NCBI GenBank assembly: GCA_903893815.1
Contig: CAITNS010000079.1
Coordinates: 1 to 64,000, forward strand
Length of the DNA: 64,000 nt
Direction of reading: 5' to 3'
Source: an uncultured Bacteroidota bacterium
GTDB taxonomy: Bacteria; Bacteroidota; Bacteroidia; B-17B0; Aurantibacillaceae
Shown here: positions 11,231-43,563 of the stretch, piece by piece
Layout: each line of letters starts with the position of its first letter
How positions within the stretch are numbered: the first letter of the stretch is position 1
The notes under the pieces: generated by a model
What the model was told of the DNA's origin: nothing
The model's input: only the letters and a program-made list of their open reading frames with translations
The model's database searches: none
Program-made: the position numbers and the translations under genes

Positions 11231-12202
11231 ATGATTTTATTACGATTTAGCGCTATTGCCTTATTCTTTACATTTATATTATCTTCATGTGGAAGTGAAT
11301 TGCCAAATAACGAAAAAGCTTTAAAAGAACCTTCAACAATTGAAGACTTAGGAGAATTGTTATTTCATGATTCTATTTTATCAAGAGGAAATCAAGTAAG
11401 TTGTGCCTCTTGCCATAAACCAGAGCATGCTTTTGCAGATAATACAACTGTTAGTTTTGGTGTGGATAGTTTAAAAGGTGATAGAAATACGCCAAGTGCA
11501 ATGAACCAGTCGTCTCGTAACTTTCAGTTTTGGGACGGAAGAATGGAAACCTTGGAGGAGCAAGCAGCAGGGCCAATTGAAAATCCTGTAGAAATGGATA
11601 TACCTTTATCATTTGCCGTTGAAAAATTAAATAAACACTCTCAGTATAGAAAATTCTTTATTAAAATTTTCGGACATCCAGCGGATAAAAAATCGGTGAC
11701 CGATGCCATTGCTGCTTTTGAAAGAACTTTAGAAACAAGTGATACTCCTTTTGATAATTATACTAGTGGAAAAGATACTATGCAATTTTCGGCCTCAGCA
11801 AAACGGGGGCAACAAATTTTTAATGTAAAAGGTAAATGTTTTGATTGCCATTTTGGACCAGATTTTACTAATGATTTTTTTAGAAATATTGGTTTATTCA
11901 ATGGTAAAGATTTAAATGATAGCGGCCGTTTTGAAGTAACTCGCAATCCAGAAGATATTGGCAGATTCAAAACCCCTGGTTTAAGAAATATTGCCATGAC
12001 AGCACCCTACATGCACAATGGTATGCATAAAACGTTAAGAGAAGTGATTGATTATTATAACGAGCCTGATAAGTTTATTAGTAACTCAGTAAACAGAGAT
12101 ACGTTATTAGCCAAGCCTTTGGGTTTAACTGAGCAAGAAAAGAAAGATTTAGAAGCATTTTTAATGTCGTTGACAGACGCTAGATTTGTGAAGAAGAAGT
12201 AA
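11231..12202 (+). CDS. Lipoprotein di-haem cytochrome c peroxidase (MauG/CcpA family)
   Basis: This 323-residue protein has a lipoprotein signal (LFFTFILSSC, lipid-modified Cys at residue 20), so it is anchored to a membrane on the periplasmic side. Two c-type haem sites are present: CASCH at residues 58-62 and CFDCH at residues 203-207. The calcium and haem surroundings are typical of the family (KGDRNTPSAMNQSSRNFQFWDGRMETLEEQA; RFKTPGLRNIAMTAPYMHNG). The family reduces H2O2 using electrons from small cytochromes, or oxidises protein side chains (MauG type). Which applies here is unknown. Its 3' end overlaps the convergent tilS gene by 23 bp, and there is no terminator between them. Confidence 0.93.
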   Translation: MILLRFSAIALFFTFILSSCGSELPNNEKALKEPSTIEDLGELLFHDSILSRGNQVSCASCHKPEHAFADNTTVSFGVDSLKGDRNTPSAMNQSSRNFQFWDGRMETLEEQAAGPIENPVEMDIPLSFAVEKLNKHSQYRKFFIKIFGHPADKKSVTDAIAAFERTLETSDTPFDNYTSGKDTMQFSASAKRGQQIFNVKGKCFDCHFGPDFTNDFFRNIGLFNGKDLNDSGRFEVTRNPEDIGRFKTPGLRNIAMTAPYMHNGMHKTLREVIDYYNEPDKFISNSVNRDTLLAKPLGLTEQEKKDLEAFLMSLTDARFVKKK

Positions 12203-13514
12203 TTCTCAATACCTTTTCAGTATCCTGATTTACCTTGCACCTATCATCTACACGATGCCCAACTACCCATACAATATGCTCTTTGTTTTCTAAAATCCAA
12301 GTAGCTTCTTTTTCAAATAAAGATAGTTTTTGATCTTTAAAAAAATCACTTAGCTTCTTAAAACCATTTAATCCCAGGGGTTTAAACTTGTCGCCTTGTT
12401 TCCACTTGCGGAGCGTTAATGGAAACAAATTATCAGAGAAGGCAATCGTAATTTCATTTTTATCTTTAGAAAATTCTCTTTGAGAAGTTTCTTCAAAATT
12501 TAATTTAATTGGTAAATGAGTCGTGTTAGAAATGGATTTAATAACGAATACTTTTTCAGATGGTTCTTTTTCTATTATCTGAACAATAATATATTTTCTA
12601 TCCACTACTAATTGATGTGTGGAAGATGAGAATTGTTTTCCTATTATTTGTTTGTCAGTTATTAATACCTCAGTTAATTGCTTTATTTGGCTTGTTTTAA
12701 AGTTTTTGAGGTATAGCCATTCAAATAATAAAGTTTCTTTTTGTGCTTCTTGCAACAATAAATTTATATCTATAAAGAGCTGATTATTTTCTTCTTTACA
12801 AATGATTTTAAATTTTTGATTTGCAAATTCAGCAACAATATCTGCTGATTGTTTAAAGAATTGAATTGAAGTAGAAAAGGTTTCTTCTAAGGAAGGATTC
12901 AGTTTTTTTAATTCTGGAATAATTTGGTGACGAATAAAATTACGGTTGTATTTTACTTCTTGATTGCTGCTATCTTCTCTAAATAATAATTCGTTTTTTT
13001 TAGCATACTCTTTAATCTCCTCTTTAGTAGCAAATAATAAGGGTCTCACAATATCATGTTGCTTTTCTGGAATGCCCTGTAATCCTTTAATACCTGTGCC
13101 TCTTATTAAATTTACAAACACCGTTTCTACATTGTCATTAGCATGATGGGCTGTTAAAATAAAATCAAAACTATATTCTGTTTTTAAGGCTTTAAACCAA
13201 TTATAACGCAATTCACGAGCCGCCATTTGTATGGATAATTTATGCTCAGCCGCATAAGTTTTCGTGTCAAAATAAATGATATGAAATTTTGCATTAATCG
13301 TCTTGGCAAAGTTTTCACAAAAAGCTGTATCATCTTTTGCTTCCTGACCTCTTAATTGAAAATTACAATGTGCTAGTTCTATGCTATAACCTGCTTTGTG
13401 CAATAAATTAGCTAACACAAACGAATCTACACCGCCACTAAAAGCTAGCAATAGTTTGTCTGTTTTGCTAAAAAGCGTATTTTTATTGATATTTACTTCA
13501 AATCGTTTAAGCAC
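12180..13514 (-). CDS. tilS: tRNA(Ile)-lysidine synthetase
   Basis: TilS uses ATP and lysine to convert C34 of the CAU-anticodon tRNA-Ile into lysidine, changing its codon reading from AUG to AUA. The N-type ATP-pyrophosphatase loop SGGVDS is at residues 26-31. It is followed by AHCNFQLRGQEAKDD and the conserved LTAHHANDNVETVFVNLIRGTGIKGL. The C-terminal TilS domain has LTLRKWKQGDKFKPLGLNGFKKLSDFFKD. The length of 444 residues is normal. The start is GTG at 13514, since an in-frame stop lies two codons upstream and there is no ATG before the ATP motif. A TAAATTTG box ends 4 nt before this GTG. Confidence 0.96.
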   Translation of the reverse strand: MLKRFEVNINKNTLFSKTDKLLLAFSGGVDSFVLANLLHKAGYSIELAHCNFQLRGQEAKDDTAFCENFAKTINAKFHIIYFDTKTYAAEHKLSIQMAARELRYNWFKALKTEYSFDFILTAHHANDNVETVFVNLIRGTGIKGLQGIPEKQHDIVRPLLFATKEEIKEYAKKNELLFREDSSNQEVKYNRNFIRHQIIPELKKLNPSLEETFSTSIQFFKQSADIVAEFANQKFKIICKEENNQLFIDINLLLQEAQKETLLFEWLYLKNFKTSQIKQLTEVLITDKQIIGKQFSSSTHQLVVDRKYIIVQIIEKEPSEKVFVIKSISNTTHLPIKLNFEETSQREFSKDKNEITIAFSDNLFPLTLRKWKQGDKFKPLGLNGFKKLSDFFKDQKLSLFEKEATWILENKEHIVWVVGHRVDDRCKVNQDTEKVLRITSSSQI

Positions 13515-29883: not shown

Positions 29884-30684
29884 CTATTGATTTATATTAC
29901 TTTTTACTTTTATACAACTTTCATAAACAGATTCTGCCTTTTGCAAATAACTGCTTTTAGGGTACAAATCTACTAATTTTAAATAACTTTCCATAGCTAA
30001 ATTTAATCTTTCTAACTTTTTGGTTTCCAGACTGTTAATTGCTAGCAGATAATAAGCATCAACTGTCACATACATCATTTCGTCAATAAAGTTAGACTCA
30101 GGGAAATCTTTTATGAAATTTTGGGCTGAAGCAATAGTAGCTTTATAATCTCCAATATTAAAATATTGATTGGTAATATCATGTTCCTTTTGTTCTAATT
30201 TACCTCTTAAAAGATCATTAATCTTATTACAAGAATCAATACGTGAACTTTCTGGATATAAGTCGATAAAATTTTGCAATTCAGCCATTGCATTTTTTGT
30301 ATCTGTTTGATCTAATTTATAAATAGGTGAATTTAAATAATAGCAATATGCATTCATGAATAAACATTCCTCGGCATGTTTACCCGATGGGAAGCTTCTG
30401 AAATAATTCTTAAAATGATATTGAGATAAGCTGTAATCTCCTTGGTAATAATTACAGTAAGAAAAATAGAAATAGATTTCCTCTGCTTTATCTGTTCCTT
30501 TATAAACAGGAATTAACTCCTCATATAAGGCTGTAGCTTTTACATAGTTACCTTTTTGGTAGTATTGATTTGCTCTCTCTAATTTTAATTCATAATTAGA
30601 ACTTTTTAAGAGTTTATTATATCCATCGCAACTTGCAAACAAGATGGACGAAAGAATAATAATATAAAGACTAATTTTTTTCAA
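29884..30684 (-). CDS. bamD: Outer membrane assembly lipoprotein BamD
   Basis: BamD is the essential lipoprotein of the BAM complex that folds beta-barrels into the outer membrane. The N-terminal lipoprotein signal is SLYIIILSSILFASC with Cys at residue 19. TPR-like helix pairs follow: RANQYYQKGNYVKATALYEEL, AEEIYFYFSYCNYYQGDYSLSQYHF, and LYPESSRIDSCNKI. The length of 266 residues is normal. The start is TTG, fixed by the signal peptide. A perfect TATCTTTG promoter box lies only 7 nt upstream. It leads the block with rpoZ and coaBC. Confidence 0.93.
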   Translation of the reverse strand: MKKISLYIIILSSILFASCDGYNKLLKSSNYELKLERANQYYQKGNYVKATALYEELIPVYKGTDKAEEIYFYFSYCNYYQGDYSLSQYHFKNYFRSFPSGKHAEECLFMNAYCYYLNSPIYKLDQTDTKNAMAELQNFIDLYPESSRIDSCNKINDLLRGKLEQKEHDITNQYFNIGDYKATIASAQNFIKDFPESNFIDEMMYVTVDAYYLLAINSLETKKLERLNLAMESYLKLVDLYPKSSYLQKAESVYESCIKVKSNINQ

Positions 30685-30691
30685 GCGAATG

Positions 30692-30699
30692 CAAAGATA
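30692..30699 (-). promoter_or_regulatory. TAnnTTTG promoter box of bamD, near-leaderless
   Basis: The minus strand reads TATCTTTG, ending 7 nt before the TTG start of bamD. The 150-bp gap to the ABC transporter gene holds no gene. Confidence 0.6.
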
Positions 30700-30834
30700 A
30701 TTTATTTAATGAATTTAGGATTGTTTATTTGTTAAAGAAAGTTAGTTCATAAAAAAGACATAAGAGATTAAAGAGAGAGAAGGGAAGCAGGACGTTTTTT
30801 AGTCCCTTCAATCCCTTCTTTCTTTTTGGTCTGG

Positions 30835-33800
30835 TTACTTTTTCTTTTTAAAGCTAATATTACCCATAGCATCTAATACTTTTTTAAATACTTCAAAATA
30901 CAACATCACCATTAATGAGAGGCTCATTAGCCAAATAACAGCCATATTAAACCAATAGGTTGGAATTAAACTACCCATAAAGCGTTTGTTAGGAGCATAA
31001 AAATGTGCTGCTCCAAAATTTGATTCAATTGGATCTAAAAAAATTGGGTCTTTTCTTTGAATTAACCTGCCATCATACTCTAAGCAATTCAATCCAAAAT
31101 CACCTTTGTTTAACACAAAGTTCTCTAAGGCTTCATTTGTATAATTATCTTGTAAAGCAATTAACTGTTCGTTGCCACCCAATTCTTTTATTAATCTTTG
31201 AGTAACTTTATCTCTCAGATCATATGCTTTTTTATCAACGTTGATATAGTTTTCGTTGATGAGTTCTAAAAAAGATTTTAAAGAAGCTCCAATTGCTAGT
31301 GAATATTCTTTTGAGTTTAGCTGATTAATTCCTTCAAATTTGTATTTATTTTTTAAGAAGGCTTGCTCTTTTAAAAGCTCATTTTTCACTAAGGTTAAAT
31401 CTTTTTCTAATTCGGTTTTTTTAGATGGATCTTTTAAAGCGTTATTGATTTTTGTGATTTTGTTTTGTATTTCTGGTATCCAATATACTTTTTTGTAAGT
31501 AGCAATACTAGTAGATCTATCAGATCTATAGAAATGTTTTTGAAATTCATTTGCTTTAAACTGATTGACAGCCAAAGCTTCAAAAGCCCAACGGCTAGCC
31601 ATCATTTCTCCAACAATTGGCACGCCGCCTTGCTTTGCTAGTATTGGATTTAATTTATCAAACTTAACCACAACACCTGCTAATAATAATTGTGGGATAA
31701 TTAAAAATGGAATCGAAATATAAATGGTAACGGCACTGTTAAACGCACTAGAAATATTTAATCCTAACATGTTAGCAAAACAAGAGGCTGAGAATAAAAT
31801 CATCCAATAATCACAAAACATTCCTTTTACTCCCATAATTAAATTACCAACTAACACAAACATAAATGTTTGAATAGCCGATAAAGTAAACATGATAATA
31901 ATTTTGCTCCATAAATAACTTCCTTTACTTAGGTTTAAAAAAGACTCACGTTTACGAATTTTTCTATCTCTTATAATCTCTTCAGCAGATACCGTTAAAC
32001 CAATAAATAAAGCAACTACCACCGACATGAACATGTAAGCAGGAACGTTTTCATTTTCTCTGAAGAAGTATCCTTTCGTATTATTAGCATCAGTATTGTA
32101 AAAACGAATTAAAGCAGCTAATACAAATGCTAAAGCTGGAGCTTCAATTAAATTGATTAATAAATATTGAGTATTAGTTAATTTACTCAATACGTCACGA
32201 GTTATAAATACTTTAAATTGCTTGAAGGCATTTGGTATTTTAAAAATAGCTTCTGGAATTTCATCTTGGTGTTTAATATTTCCAATTGTAGATTCTATTT
32301 TCTCAACATAACTTTTATTCCATTCACTTGGACTTGTTTTACGATTGTGTGTTAAGTTACCGTATTCATCCAATACTTTACTTTCAATAATATTAAAAAT
32401 TAATTCAGGGTTTACGTTACCACAGTTCCAGCATTCGCTTTCTTCAGCATTAACATGTTGCACCAATGTCTTGAAGTAAGAAACAGCATCAACTGGATTT
32501 CCATAATAAATTGGGTAACCACCCACATCTAAAATTTGAAGTTTATCAAACATTTTAAAAATGTCTGATGATGGTTGATGGATAACTACAAAAATTAATT
32601 TCCCTTTTAAAGATAATTCTTTTAAAAGGTCCATAATGTTTTCAGAGTCTCGTGATGATAAACCAGAAGTAGGCTCATCTACATAAAGCACGGATGGTTC
32701 ACGAATTAACTCTAAACCAATATTTAAACGTTTACGTTGTCCTCCTGAAATTGTTTTTTCTAAAGGTGAACCAACTTTTAATTCTTTAGTTTCAGATAAA
32801 CCTAAATCAGCTAATAAAGAATGACATTTTTTAGCGATTTCCTCGTCGCTTAAATTGCCAAAACATAATTTAGCATTGTAAAATAAGTTTTGATAAACCG
32901 TTAATTCTTCAATTAACAAGTCATCTTGTGTAACGTGACCAATAACGCCTTCAACAAATTTTTTCTCAACGTGAATGTTTTTTCCATTAATTAAAACTTG
33001 TCCGCCGCTAGGTATTTCTACACCGTTTAAAACATTTAATAAAGTAGATTTACCAGCGCCTGAACCTCCCATAATACCAATTAACTTACCGCCTTCTTCG
33101 CGGATATTGATATTACGTAGACCTAATTTGCCACCTTTAAATTTATATTCAATATTTTTTGCCTCAAACGAAATACGAGCTTGTGATCCATCTGCTAAGA
33201 AACGGCTGATAATATCACTATAATAAATTGGTTTAACCCTTGAGTTTCTTAAAGATGAACCAGGAGTTAAAATGTGAACACGTTCTTTTGAAATACCTTG
33301 ACCATTTAACTGTAACTCAATATTACCGTAAATACGCAAAGCATACATACCAACGCTATCAATTTGTATTACTCGAACATCAGAAGATAACGCATCGCAG
33401 TAAATGTGTTTACAAGCATTTTCGTAACCATTTTCTTTGTTATTAATAACTAAGATATTTGGTGTATTTGGAATTTTTTCTGCAGTATCTTCAATAAAGG
33501 CTCTTAACTGATTAAACTCTTCAAGCGAAATGTTAAAGGTATCAGCCACTGTTATTACAAATTCATTTTCTTGTTCCGAAATTTCATCTGAAGAGTAAAT
33601 AAATTCTAATAAACGTATTAATACGATAACTTTTTGAGGTTGCTCTAATTCTTGATTAATTTGAGTACAGATCTTTAATACTTTAACTGAGTTTAATGAG
33701 GTTCGTTTTGCTGAACCATCTTTTTTCTTTGAACCAGCTTGCTGCGCTTCAATATACTCATCAAAAATAACTAAGTATTTTTCAACCTGCTCTTTATTTA

Positions 33801-33912
33801 ATTGTTGTTTCAAAAAGGCCTCAACAATTGAACGACCAGTATTACTAATTCCATCAACTTTGGCGATGATGGCAAACATTTGCATTAGGGCACGAAGTAT
33901 TCGTTCACTCAT
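30835..33912 (-). CDS. ABCG-type ATP-binding cassette/permease with N-terminal TerB-like domain
   Basis: This 1,025-residue protein combines an N-terminal TerB-like helical region (about 1-150, with MQMFAIIAKVDGISNTGR and ISEQENEFVITVAD), a beta-rich linker, and an ABC ATPase. The ATPase has the Walker A GGSGAGKSTLLN, the signature SGGQRKRLNIGLELI and the Walker B VLYVDEPTSGL, followed by a switch His in VVIHQPSSD. An ABC2-type membrane region has about six helices near residues 570-770. A long hydrophilic segment then precedes a last helix near the C terminus (WFNMAVIWLMSLSLMVMLYF). The order ATPase-then-membrane is that of the ABCG/White family. The substrate is unknown. Confidence 0.88.
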   Translation of the reverse strand: MSERILRALMQMFAIIAKVDGISNTGRSIVEAFLKQQLNKEQVEKYLVIFDEYIEAQQAGSKKKDGSAKRTSLNSVKVLKICTQINQELEQPQKVIVLIRLLEFIYSSDEISEQENEFVITVADTFNISLEEFNQLRAFIEDTAEKIPNTPNILVINNKENGYENACKHIYCDALSSDVRVIQIDSVGMYALRIYGNIELQLNGQGISKERVHILTPGSSLRNSRVKPIYYSDIISRFLADGSQARISFEAKNIEYKFKGGKLGLRNINIREEGGKLIGIMGGSGAGKSTLLNVLNGVEIPSGGQVLINGKNIHVEKKFVEGVIGHVTQDDLLIEELTVYQNLFYNAKLCFGNLSDEEIAKKCHSLLADLGLSETKELKVGSPLEKTISGGQRKRLNIGLELIREPSVLYVDEPTSGLSSRDSENIMDLLKELSLKGKLIFVVIHQPSSDIFKMFDKLQILDVGGYPIYYGNPVDAVSYFKTLVQHVNAEESECWNCGNVNPELIFNIIESKVLDEYGNLTHNRKTSPSEWNKSYVEKIESTIGNIKHQDEIPEAIFKIPNAFKQFKVFITRDVLSKLTNTQYLLINLIEAPALAFVLAALIRFYNTDANNTKGYFFRENENVPAYMFMSVVVALFIGLTVSAEEIIRDRKIRKRESFLNLSKGSYLWSKIIIMFTLSAIQTFMFVLVGNLIMGVKGMFCDYWMILFSASCFANMLGLNISSAFNSAVTIYISIPFLIIPQLLLAGVVVKFDKLNPILAKQGGVPIVGEMMASRWAFEALAVNQFKANEFQKHFYRSDRSTSIATYKKVYWIPEIQNKITKINNALKDPSKKTELEKDLTLVKNELLKEQAFLKNKYKFEGINQLNSKEYSLAIGASLKSFLELINENYINVDKKAYDLRDKVTQRLIKELGGNEQLIALQDNYTNEALENFVLNKGDFGLNCLEYDGRLIQRKDPIFLDPIESNFGAAHFYAPNKRFMGSLIPTYWFNMAVIWLMSLSLMVMLYFEVFKKVLDAMGNISFKKKK

Positions 33913-34008
33913 AGTATTTTAATTAAAAGATGTTTTGCAGGACAAGTACGCAAGATACTAAATATTAACTATTTAACAAATATCAATTGAATATTTTGTA
34001 AAAGCGTT

Positions 34009-34024: not shown

Positions 34025-36355
34025 ATGGATAAATCCCTCATAAATCTAAGTCCTGCAGAGCTTGCCGCTAAGTGTATTAATCAAACCAATAAGCCTGTTT
34101 TTTTAACTGGGAAAGCAGGAACCGGAAAAACCACTTTTTTACGTAAAATAATTGAACATACCCATAAAAATACCATTATTGTTGCCCCTACAGGCATTGC
34201 AGCTATTAATGCAGGTGGAGTTACCATTCATTCGCAATTTGGAGTGCCATTTGGTTGTTTTATTCCGGATAGCAGTTATAAAATTGAAAATACAAATACC
34301 AAAATAAACACGCCCTACACCATGGTTAAGCATTTAAATATGCGCGACCAAAAACGAAAATTACTTCAGGAATTAGAGCTACTGATTATTGATGAAGTAA
34401 GTATGTTGAGAGCTGATTTATTAGATACGATTGATTTTGTATTAAAAAGTATTCGTCGTCAACAACATAAACCTTTTGGAGGAGTTCAGGTTTTATTTAT
34501 TGGTGATTTAATGCAATTACCTCCCGTTGTAAAAGAAGAAGAGTGGAACGTTTTACGCAATTATTACAATAGCATTTACTTTTTTGACGCTCAAGTTTTA
34601 AGAAACGAAAAGCCAGTTTACATTGAATTAGATAAAATCTATCGTCAGTCGGATAGTACCTTTATTGACTTGTTGAATAACTTAAGAAATAACAAGGTTA
34701 CACAAGCTAACATTGATTTATTAAACTCCTACTACAAGCCTAATTTTGATGTTACTTCTGCTTTAAATACAATCACCCTAACTACTCACAATAATAAGGC
34801 TGATACATTGAATAGGTCTGCATTACAAGAGTTAAAAGGGAAGTCTTATTTTTTTAGTGCAAACATTGATGGGGAATTTAATGAATATGCTTACCCAGTA
34901 GAAGCTTATTTGGAGCTCAAACTGGGGGCCCAAATTATGTTTATTAAAAATGATGTAAGTGGAAAACAGCAATATTTTAATGGAAAAATTGGAGTTGTTT
35001 CGTCGTTGAGAGATAAAGAAATTGAAATTGATTTTAAGGATGGGACTAAGCCGTTTCTATTAGAACATTATCAATGGAAAAACATTAAATACGAATTGAA
35101 TCCTGTTACTAACGAAATTGATGAAACCGAAATAGGAACTTTTATTCAATATCCTATTAAATTAGCTTGGGCTATTACAGTTCATAAAAGTCAAGGGTTA
35201 ACTTTTGAAAAAGCTATTTTAGATATTAATCGTGCCTTTGCACCAGGACAGGTTTATGTTGCTTTATCACGTTTAAAATCATTAGATGGTTTGGTATTAA
35301 CTTCTCCAATTCAATTTAATGCTATCTCTCAAGATAAAACCTTGGTAGATTATGCAGAGAATAAACCCAAAAATGAAGAAGTAAAGCGGTTAATTGATCA
35401 GGAAACCGTTTTGTTTTTGAAAGGCTATACATTGAAAGCCTACGATTTTGTTTGGTTATATACTTGTCTCAGAAATCATGAGGCGAGTTATAATATGGCC
35501 GAGAATAAATCGAATAAACAAAAGCATCAGGTTTGGGCAAAAGAGTTAATTGAAAAATTTGAACCTTTAAAAGTAAATGCAGATAAATTTAGTAACCAGT
35601 TGATGCAGATTTTTGAAAGTAGGGCAGAGGATTACTTGCAAACTGTAAGTGCTAGACATGTTGCTGCTAAAAATTATTTTTATCCTGTTTTAAAAGAATT
35701 GTCAAAATCTATTTTAGTACATATCGAATTGTTAAAAGAGGAAAAACAAATTAAAACCTATTTAGAAGAATTATTAGAGTTGGAAGGTTTGTTGTATAAG
35801 CATTTACAGCAATTAGATAAAGTATCGACAGTAATTGATAATGTATTGAATAATGTGGAGTTTAATAAACAACAACTAAAATTTAATGCCAATCAAAATG
35901 AACGCTTAGAGCTAGTAAGACAAACGATAGTCATAACTGAGAAAGCTGCATTTGAAGAAAGGGCTTCTAAAAAAGTAACAGGTAGAAAAAGCAAAAAAGT
36001 AACTTCGACAAGCTCAGGTATCGAAACTTCCAAAAAAGTAAAAGCAGCAAAACCAGATACCAAAGAGTTGAGCTTTGCTTTATACAAAGAGGGTAAAACT
36101 ATCTTTGAAATAGCTGAGGCCAGAGGCTTTGCGTTAACTACTATTGAAGGACATTTAGCACATTATGTGAGTTTAGGAATGATTCCGGTTTCTAATTTTG
36201 TAGCTAAAGAAAAATTTAAAGTTATAATGGAAGCTTCTAAAAAAATAGAAAGCGATAATAAGTTAACTCCTTTGAAACTTGAATTAGGTGATGATTATTC
36301 GTATTCCGAAATACGTTTTTCTTTAGCAACCCAAAAACATTTAAATAAAAAGTAG
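34025..36355 (+). CDS. Pif1-type DNA helicase with C-terminal helix-turn-helix
   Basis: This 776-residue superfamily 1 helicase has Walker A GKAGTGKTTFLRK (about residues 29-41), Walker B ELLIIDEVSML, and the late motif WAITVHKSQGLTFEKAILD followed by VYVALSRLKSLDGL. Pif1-like enzymes unwind 5'-to-3' and remove G-quadruplexes or protein blocks. The C-terminal 100 residues contain a helix-turn-helix (KEGKTIFEIAEARGFALTTIEGHLAHYVSLG) of the kind found in RecQ-like proteins. A lysine-rich linker near residues 640-680 carries a short repeat-like insertion. The gene is transcribed alone and ends at a strong terminator. Confidence 0.92.
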   Translation: MDKSLINLSPAELAAKCINQTNKPVFLTGKAGTGKTTFLRKIIEHTHKNTIIVAPTGIAAINAGGVTIHSQFGVPFGCFIPDSSYKIENTNTKINTPYTMVKHLNMRDQKRKLLQELELLIIDEVSMLRADLLDTIDFVLKSIRRQQHKPFGGVQVLFIGDLMQLPPVVKEEEWNVLRNYYNSIYFFDAQVLRNEKPVYIELDKIYRQSDSTFIDLLNNLRNNKVTQANIDLLNSYYKPNFDVTSALNTITLTTHNNKADTLNRSALQELKGKSYFFSANIDGEFNEYAYPVEAYLELKLGAQIMFIKNDVSGKQQYFNGKIGVVSSLRDKEIEIDFKDGTKPFLLEHYQWKNIKYELNPVTNEIDETEIGTFIQYPIKLAWAITVHKSQGLTFEKAILDINRAFAPGQVYVALSRLKSLDGLVLTSPIQFNAISQDKTLVDYAENKPKNEEVKRLIDQETVLFLKGYTLKAYDFVWLYTCLRNHEASYNMAENKSNKQKHQVWAKELIEKFEPLKVNADKFSNQLMQIFESRAEDYLQTVSARHVAAKNYFYPVLKELSKSILVHIELLKEEKQIKTYLEELLELEGLLYKHLQQLDKVSTVIDNVLNNVEFNKQQLKFNANQNERLELVRQTIVITEKAAFEERASKKVTGRKSKKVTSTSSGIETSKKVKAAKPDTKELSFALYKEGKTIFEIAEARGFALTTIEGHLAHYVSLGMIPVSNFVAKEKFKVIMEASKKIESDNKLTPLKLELGDDYSYSEIRFSLATQKHLNKK
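36003..36018 (+). repeat. CTTCGACAAGCTCAGG phrase inside the helicase gene
   Basis: This 16-bp phrase resembles half of the intergenic palindromes common in Bacteroidota. Here it lies in frame in the helicase linker. It is flanked on both sides by the decamer AAAAAAGTAA (ends of 35993-36002 and about 36031-36041). Confidence 0.5.
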
Positions 36356-42432: not shown

Positions 42433-43563
42433 ACTGTTTTCTTTTATCTCTTCCATCAGTTGTTCTTTGGTTTTATTTCTATTTTTAATATGAATGAAAT
42501 TCCCTTTACCAATTTCTGCAATTTCTTTTAAATTTTTTATAGCGTCTTTATCATTGCCAAACGCCATGGTAGACAATTTAATGTTCTTATCAGCTTTATT
42601 TAGACTATATTTTTTTTGATCGTCGGGATAAAATCTAAATTTTCCATCTGTTGCCAGTATAATTTGATTGTTTCCATTTGAAATGTAATTTTTTATAGCA
42701 ACCTCTAAACTAAATAAAATGGCTTTATTCCCTTTAGTCATGCCTTTTGCTTTTAAACGACTAACTACTTCATTTAATTCTTCTTTTTGATTTCCAGTTA
42801 ATCCCTCCCGAATTATTTTTACAGTATCTGCATAGGTAATAAACGTTATTTTATCAATGGGACGAAGGTTTTCAATTAAATGATGTAGGGCAAATTGCAT
42901 CACTTTTAATTTATTAGTATCTCTCATAGAACTTGATACGTCAACCAAAAAAATGATATTATTTGGTTTATATAATTTCTCGTCTAATACTGTTTTTGAT
43001 TCATTTTTGGTTTCTATAATGGAAGTTGGTGCTGGAATAGGAGCAGGTTCTTTTACTTCCTCAGTTGAGTTATTATCAGGAATTTTATTGGATGTATCTT
43101 TAGGTTTGTTAGGCTCCCTAACAACAATTGGTTCAATAGTTTTTGCACCAGTATGATTTGGTTTCTTAAAATAAAAACAAGCCGTTTTGTCATCTGTTTT
43201 TATAGACTTAATATTTCCTGAAAGCGATAGTTTAAATGGAATGCCATCTGCACTGGTTACTAAATCAATATTTTCCGAGAATTTACCAGCTTGTTGAGGA
43301 ATAAATTCCACTACAATAATTGTTGTATCACCTGGTTTTATAGTTTTTTTAGCTGCACGAATGGTAATTCCTTTTTTTGCATCAGCTCTCAATAAATACA
43401 AGTTTTTTGCTTGATTATTTTGAATGACATAATCTGCTTTAACTTTGTAAATATTTTCTTGCGAACCAATATCTTGGTTCTGCTCATCAATGCCAATCAA
43501 AGTATTTTGAGAGAAAATTAATGAGCAAAAACAAATGAAGAATATAGTATAAAAGAATTTCAA
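42421..43563 (-). CDS. DUF1573-like plus von Willebrand A domain secreted protein
   Basis: This 380-residue protein has a signal peptide (FYTIFFICFCSLIFSQ). An N-terminal DUF1573-like beta domain follows (about residues 25-125, with KGITIRAAKKTIKPGDTTIIVV and QQAGKFSENIDL). A proline/threonine-rich linker (about residues 150-190) leads to a von Willebrand A domain with the metal motif DVSSSMRD, a conserved Thr region and ILATDGKFRF. VWA domains bind proteins in a metal-dependent way. The full fusion is unusual in my experience, and the function is unknown. It would act in the periplasm or at the surface. Confidence 0.82.
   Translation of the reverse strand: MKFFYTIFFICFCSLIFSQNTLIGIDEQNQDIGSQENIYKVKADYVIQNNQAKNLYLLRADAKKGITIRAAKKTIKPGDTTIIVVEFIPQQAGKFSENIDLVTSADGIPFKLSLSGNIKSIKTDDKTACFYFKKPNHTGAKTIEPIVVREPNKPKDTSNKIPDNNSTEEVKEPAPIPAPTSIIETKNESKTVLDEKLYKPNNIIFLVDVSSSMRDTNKLKVMQFALHHLIENLRPIDKITFITYADTVKIIREGLTGNQKEELNEVVSRLKAKGMTKGNKAILFSLEVAIKNYISNGNNQIILATDGKFRFYPDDQKKYSLNKADKNIKLSTMAFGNDKDAIKNLKEIAEIGKGNFIHIKNRNKTKEQLMEEIKENSLIR

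Follow-up and report, generated by a model that had tools for sequence, protein, structure and literature searches.

A conserved UUG or CUG start close to a sigma-ABfr type promoter box suggests a near-leaderless bamD mRNA in several genera of Aurantibacillaceae

The bamD gene of an uncultured bacterium of the family Aurantibacillaceae (Bacteroidota) opens with TTG a few nucleotides downstream of a promoter-like box, and the question raised by this locus is whether its mRNA carries almost no leader and how a UUG codon would then serve as the start. The DNA analyzed, referred to here as the window, is a stretch of 64,000 nucleotides (contig CAITNS010000079.1 of GenBank assembly GCA_903893815.1), and its relevant features are collected in Table 1. 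The product was identified as BamD/YfiO by TIGR03302 (109.6 bits against a curated cut-off of 81.4) and by PF13525 (79.5 bits against 25). It is the same protein as the BamD of the Bacteroidota BAM complex (PMC12611786, PMC12578637), the expression of whose gene is not treated in the available portions of those reports. The bamD gene, designated Fjoh_3469 in Flavobacterium johnsoniae and Bt0573 in Bacteroides thetaiotaomicron, is reported not to be deletable in the former (PMC12611786), and by analogy it is probably essential in the organism of the window. On the same strand, bamD is followed by the genes for an Rpb6/omega family RNA polymerase protein, coaBC and a DUF4835 protein, and is preceded at a distance of ~150 nt by an ABC transporter gene (30835-33912).

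Table 1. Features of the bamD and tilS loci, with positions counted on the window
Feature	Position	Strand	Basis
bamD/YfiO, outer membrane assembly lipoprotein, 266 aa	29884..30684	minus	TIGR03302, PF13525
TTG start codon of bamD	30684-30682	minus	sequence and comparison with relatives
Spacer CATTCGC, 7 nt, from box to TTG	30691-30685	minus	sequence
Sigma-ABfr -7 box TATCTTTG (TAnnTTTG)	30699-30692	minus	sequence
In-frame stop TAA 5' of bamD	30706-30708	minus	sequence
Lipoprotein signal MKKISLYIIILSSILFAS followed by C19 (LFAS/C19)	30628..30684	minus	translation, read by eye
TTTAACAAAT motif, starting 37 nt before the box start	30727..30736	minus	sequence and relatives
tilS, GTG start at 13514-13512, gap 4	12180..13514	minus	TIGR02432, over cut-off
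tilS box TAAATTTG	13526-13519	minus	sequence

The octamer TATCTTTG agrees with the -7 box TAnnTTTG of sigma-ABfr promoters. A TTTG of the kind expected at about -33 was not found when the 24 nt before the box were read by eye; the -33 element is not strictly required, since it is reported to be far less obvious in F. johnsoniae (PMC6847099). The rarity of the box was rejected as evidence, as TATCTTTG occurs five times in the window against 4.45 matches expected in shuffles, and hence the argument has to rest on relatives. Matches to bamD were obtained in 84 of the 87 genomes of the family (all except G011, G063 and G106), and four genera, grouped by name and start codon, were compared, namely, that of the window (g1), g6, g8, and g2, with 66 rows having a readable N-terminus. 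The start codon was TTG in 42 of these rows, CTG in 21, ATG in two and GTG in one, i.e., TTG or CTG (YTG) in 63/66 rows across the four genera. All 19 rows of g1 showed TTG at a gap (the distance from the end of the box to the start codon) of 6-8 nt, and in g2 CTG was commonest (21/38 rows, mostly at gap 5). In 61/66 rows of the four genera, an in-frame NTG follows 3-9 nt after the end of a TA..TTT(G/A) box; the background frequency on the same strand was 39 boxes in 13,725 nt, or ~0.02 per seven positions, which is the number expected per row. Both the TTG start and the box ending 7 nt before it, as claimed by the first-pass annotation, were thus borne out, and the comparison with close relatives that it had proposed found TTG in every g1 row and the box in most rows of the four genera.

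Under strict criteria (TAHHTTTG, gap 4-8, TTG or CTG), 48/66 rows were retained. Among the 61 boxes, positions 3 and 4 vary between A, C and T, with a single G, and 49 boxes close with G and 12 with A; the five remaining letters were preset by the search pattern. The 12 boxes ending in TTTA differ from those of F. johnsoniae, in which the final G is reported to be nearly invariant (PMC6847099). The five rows outside the 61 comprise L195 and L197 (TTG with TACTTTCG) and L159 (TTG with TAACTTCG), all at similar distances, along with L198 (TTG, gap 11) and L194 (ATG, gap 14). The rows are related by descent, and the start regions of L001 and L034 within the genus are identical. The six remaining genera of the family contributed 17 rows, of which 16 received an ATG start and one a GTG start (13 of the 17 set by eye), and in other families of the class ATG was found at a gap of 3-9 from a box in 9/21 rows. 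A single origin of the four YTG genera was not supported by a quick bamD tree, which places g3 and g4 (both ATG) and one copy from g10 between these genera. For this tree, 18 row starts were set by eye, including those of L026 and L037, which had been called as CTG automatically and were changed to ATG. G074, which lacks the N-terminus, was left out, L208 was dropped as it had no Cys at the expected place, and L060 took the place of L018, which also lacks the N-terminus, but was too short to enter the tree. Within the class set, G043 gave no match, L039 had no Cys at the expected place, and L053 was kept with a Cys that is probably mis-set.

Few alternative starts are available in most rows. 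In the window, TTG is the sole in-frame NTG listed in the interval that opens with the upstream stop and closes 11 codons ahead of the lipobox Cys, no in-frame NTG being present between the TAA and the TTG, and Cys19 was found to be invariant in a 12-row alignment (A1). Similarly, between the upstream stop and the tenth codon before the lipobox Cys, 52 of the 63 YTG rows are free of in-frame ATG and GTG codons. It is very improbable that BamD is translated from another in-frame codon, with TTG or CTG being merely a later Leu codon. The codons that could serve are the window's ATT, which precedes TTG by two codons (ATT CGC TTG) and is not conserved within the genus, and an in-frame ATG or GTG further upstream in 11/63 YTG rows; however, the latter are positioned before the box, and some of them sit inside a terminator tail. 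Six YTG rows have only 0-2 open codons before the start, L200 having a stop directly before its TTG.

Promoters of F. johnsoniae mostly show 4 or 5 nt between the box and the transcription start site (TSS) (PMC6847099). By analogy, the TSS is predicted at the 5th or 6th nucleotide after the box, which would give a bamD leader of 2-3 nt in the window and of 0-1 nt at gap 5, i.e., in most CTG relatives; with a gap of 7 nt in the window and of 3-9 nt in 61/66 rows, the predicted leader stays below 10 nt. The near-leaderless architecture and the TTG start proposed by the first-pass annotation find good support in this comparison, while the leader of 0-2 nt given there is corrected to 2-3 nt by the 4-5 nt spacing. 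A terminator-like hairpin with a T-run ending 20-60 nt before the start was observed in 7/8 g8 and 17/38 g2 rows (means of 0.1 and 0.4 in shuffles). These upstream terminators, present in 24/46 rows, should end transcripts arriving from further upstream and thus argue against long bamD leaders in g2 and g8. In g1, such a terminator was seen in only 1/19 rows, and owing to its absence a leadered bamD transcript is possible in that genus. Strong hairpins are packed into the 20-60 nt before the bamD start in L160, L164, L172, L179, and L020 (g2/g8).

Upstream of the box, the motif TTTAACAA occurs in 14/19 rows of the genus and starts exactly 37 nt before the box start in 14/14 of them; the box-to-start distance varies from 6 to 8 nt in the genus, so that the spacing of TTTAACAA is tied to the box and not to the start codon. 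The pattern TTTAACAAN26-31TAHHTTTG gave nine matches in the genome versus two for the reversed pattern, and TTTAACAA resembles a promoter element linked to the box, which would fit a genuine promoter. The window form TTTAACAAAT is also present at 33972-33981, before a helicase-like gene at 34025 (box gap 9). The distance from TTTAACAAAT to the box is 36-37 nt at the two genes, and the motif could possibly be an upstream element shared by them. A search for sigma-70 promoters was not informative (three weak matches against 2.0 expected), and RNA folding of the bamD upstream region (z -1.85) gave no clear role for structure.

The main bamD transcript could instead start well upstream, by read-through from the ABC transporter gene or from an upstream promoter, in which case UUG would be an ordinary weak start behind a leader and the box would be secondary or non-functional. 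The same-strand gene lying ~150 nt ahead of bamD would allow this, and no terminator-like site was found at 30500-31000 of the window. L005 has a TAACTTTG box 45 nt upstream of its own box, but the corresponding place in the window has TAACTTTC, which lacks the final G. Conserved non-ATG starts with no nearby box do exist in the genome, for example at window positions 43563 (TTG in 4/4 rows), 41758 (GTG in three and TTG in one of four rows) and 5611 (TTG in three and GTG in one of five rows). Against an upstream start, a hairpin stands between the box and any further promoter in 24/46 g8 and g2 rows, the box-to-start distance is kept across genera, and TTTAACAA is spaced to the box. Taken with these observations, an upstream start for the main transcript is considered unlikely, and transcription of bamD from its own box is preferred.

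The published rarity of leaderless mRNAs in flavobacteria counts against a near-leaderless bamD. Leaderless mRNAs are reported as 5.5% of the mapped mRNAs in F. psychrophilum (PMC9723704), 5' UTRs under 10 nt as 3.7% in Bacteroides thetaiotaomicron (PMC7366714), and leaders over 10 nt as 87% in F. johnsoniae (PMC6847099). These short-leader mRNAs of Bacteroidota are comparable to bamD in the type of promoter and the very short predicted leader, and form a minority class there too. They differ in that, in the available portions of these reports, leaderless mRNAs are defined by AUG or their codons are not given, and no conserved UUG or CUG case appears. The premise of the first-pass annotation that leaderless mRNAs normally depend on AUG agrees with reports on E. 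coli, in which AUG is needed and other codons fail or are much weaker (PMC4611024, PMC9031893), and on a leaderless reporter in Haloferax, in which UUG gave no product (PMC4574771). These systems resemble the arrangement predicted for bamD in that the start codon lies at the 5' end or within a few nt of it; the classical AUG requirement of E. coli is, however, at odds with the TTG or CTG of the bamD rows. The premise does not hold for actinobacteria, as the leaderless mRNAs of Propionibacterium acnes are reported to start with AUG (68%), GUG (29%), or UUG (3%) (PMC3848588) and those of mycobacteria with AUG or GUG (PMC9094748). Non-AUG codons are tolerated in these organisms, as is proposed for bamD, but they are mainly GUG and occur in another phylum with another promoter, whereas bamD, a probably essential gene, retains UUG or CUG in several genera. 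Switches from AUG to UUG have been reported to be strongly selected against (PMC5622118). In a literature search that covered mostly titles and the openings of abstracts, no conserved UUG or CUG start on near-leaderless mRNAs of Bacteroidota was recognised. Non-AUG leaderless starts as such are known (actinobacterial GUG and rare UUG), and what appears to be new is a conserved UUG or CUG in a probably essential gene.

The bamD TTG is no lone case, given the YTG starts of the relatives and similar arrangements with non-AUG starts at tilS, which is a second instance within the window, and at recR. At tilS, TA..TTT(G/A) was found at a gap of 3-4 in all of the best 30 family loci, with GTG in 26 and ATG in four. 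In 8/30 loci the near box is TAGATTT(G/A), which is off the TAHHTTTG consensus, and a consensus box is present at gap 23 in seven of those eight; the gap is 3 in 14/30 loci (L229-L258), which is a misfit with the 4-5 nt spacing from box to TSS. For recR (TIGR00615), a box at gap 4-6 was found in 27/30 loci of g2, which start with TTG in 12, GTG in nine, ATG in four, and CTG in two, one of the TTG codons having an ATG just before it. Five further recR loci, four from g8 and one from g6, showed a box at gap 4-5 (GTG three, TTG one, ATG one; two read by eye), and in g1 the box was absent in 15/15 loci (GTG 10, ATG five). In g2 and g8, the recR start thus switches among TTG, GTG, ATG, and CTG at one site 4-6 nt after the box (L259-L288, L354-L358). 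At trmD (NF000648), 16 of the best 30 loci have a box at gap 3-6; of these, 15 start with ATG and one with GTG, and the remaining 14 had ATG in 13 and TTG in one. Eleven of these 16 near sites, the GTG one included, are at gap 3, and those at gap 4-6 have ATG in 5/5. Gap-3 boxes before ATG or GTG were therefore observed in 11/30 trmD (L309-L338) and 14/30 tilS loci, and the spacing from box to TSS may be shorter in this family.

Since tilS and recR were picked for being non-AUG, they indicate that the pattern recurs and do not give its frequency. When 460 kb carrying 282 called genes were scanned with the strict box, bamD was the only convincing TTG case, the second match being followed three codons later by an ATG. 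In a g2 genome, 400 kb scanned in this way yielded TTG once, GTG once, and ATG seven times. A wider box added further GTG and TTG candidates in both genomes, chance matches included, and the notion that bamD is the only such gene was rejected on account of these candidates and of the recurrence of tilS and recR in relatives. The table of orthologue starts for near-box genes (ATG three, GTG one, TTG one, and one borderline ATG, mostly at gap 8-9) is too small to show a non-AUG preference. Genome-wide patterns of the MKK type were likewise uninformative, the TTG form giving five matches versus three reversed and the ATG form eight versus five. The arrangement is common to several genera and probably to several genes.

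Whether the codon itself is under selection was evaluated by parsimony on the quick bamD tree, which gave seven TTG-CTG interchanges and three changes to ATG. The ATG starts sit at positions other than the YTG site, and no bamD row has ATG at that site. At fourfold sites of bamD, changes from T or C led to T or C in 188 cases, to A in 201, and to G in 133. On this basis, P was 0.0008 for 7/7, when the ATG changes were excluded as being at other positions, and 0.03 for 7/10, when all three were counted, the test drawing on few events and on a quick tree whose root was arbitrary. These values provide modest evidence that ATG is avoided at the bamD start.

It is possible, though somewhat doubtful, that the near-leaderless position is real and the non-AUG codon neutral, any NUG near the 5' end being accepted and the first base drifting between T and C. 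The swapping of TTG and CTG in bamD and the mixture of four start codons at g2 recR are in line with such drift. Neutrality is, however, disfavoured because the codons of trmD and tilS are gene-specific, trmD with a near box keeping ATG in 15/16 loci and tilS GTG in 26/30, and A, the commonest fate of T or C at fourfold sites, is never seen at the YTG site of bamD. The contrast with trmD is weakened by its many gap-3 sites, which are short for the 4-5 nt spacing.

It is therefore preferred, with fair though not full assurance, that bamD has a conserved near-leaderless mRNA from its own sigma-ABfr type promoter, initiated at UUG, with the weak codon probably kept to limit BamD. Transcription would begin from the promoter whose -7 box adjoins the gene, leaving a leader of only a few nt (~2-3 in the window). 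Initiation at UUG would follow a leaderless-like route, in which the initiator tRNA would decode UUG as Met, and the non-AUG codon would probably be retained by selection, keeping BamD synthesis low. Selection on the codon is suggested because the first base shifts between T and C and is never A at the site, while trmD near a box keeps ATG. The transcript start, the leaderless-like initiation, and the use of UUG are all inferred from DNA, and the assurance given to them is slightly reduced by the gap-3 sites and by the gap-23 boxes at tilS.

A bolder proposal, which is quite possible but short of likely, is that ribosomes of this family can use any NUG, CUG among them, to start near-leaderless mRNAs, and that the UUG or CUG of bamD is kept by selection as a throttle on outer-membrane assembly. 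If true, a natural, essential gene would show 5'-end initiation uncoupled from the recognition of AUG. Loss of IF3 was rejected as an explanation, infC being found in 78/87 genomes of the family. For the recognition of a start codon at a 5' end that lacks a Shine-Dalgarno sequence, work in E. coli concluded that AUG itself is needed. The genes bamD, tilS, recR, and trmD form a natural comparison set in which the AUG requirement and regulatory use are directly testable. Gene callers that disallow CTG may also set the bamD start wrongly in many genomes of these genera. Two further genes, uvrB (L140:1565) and purK (L150:10338), were observed to have GTG 4 nt after a TAHHTTTA box.
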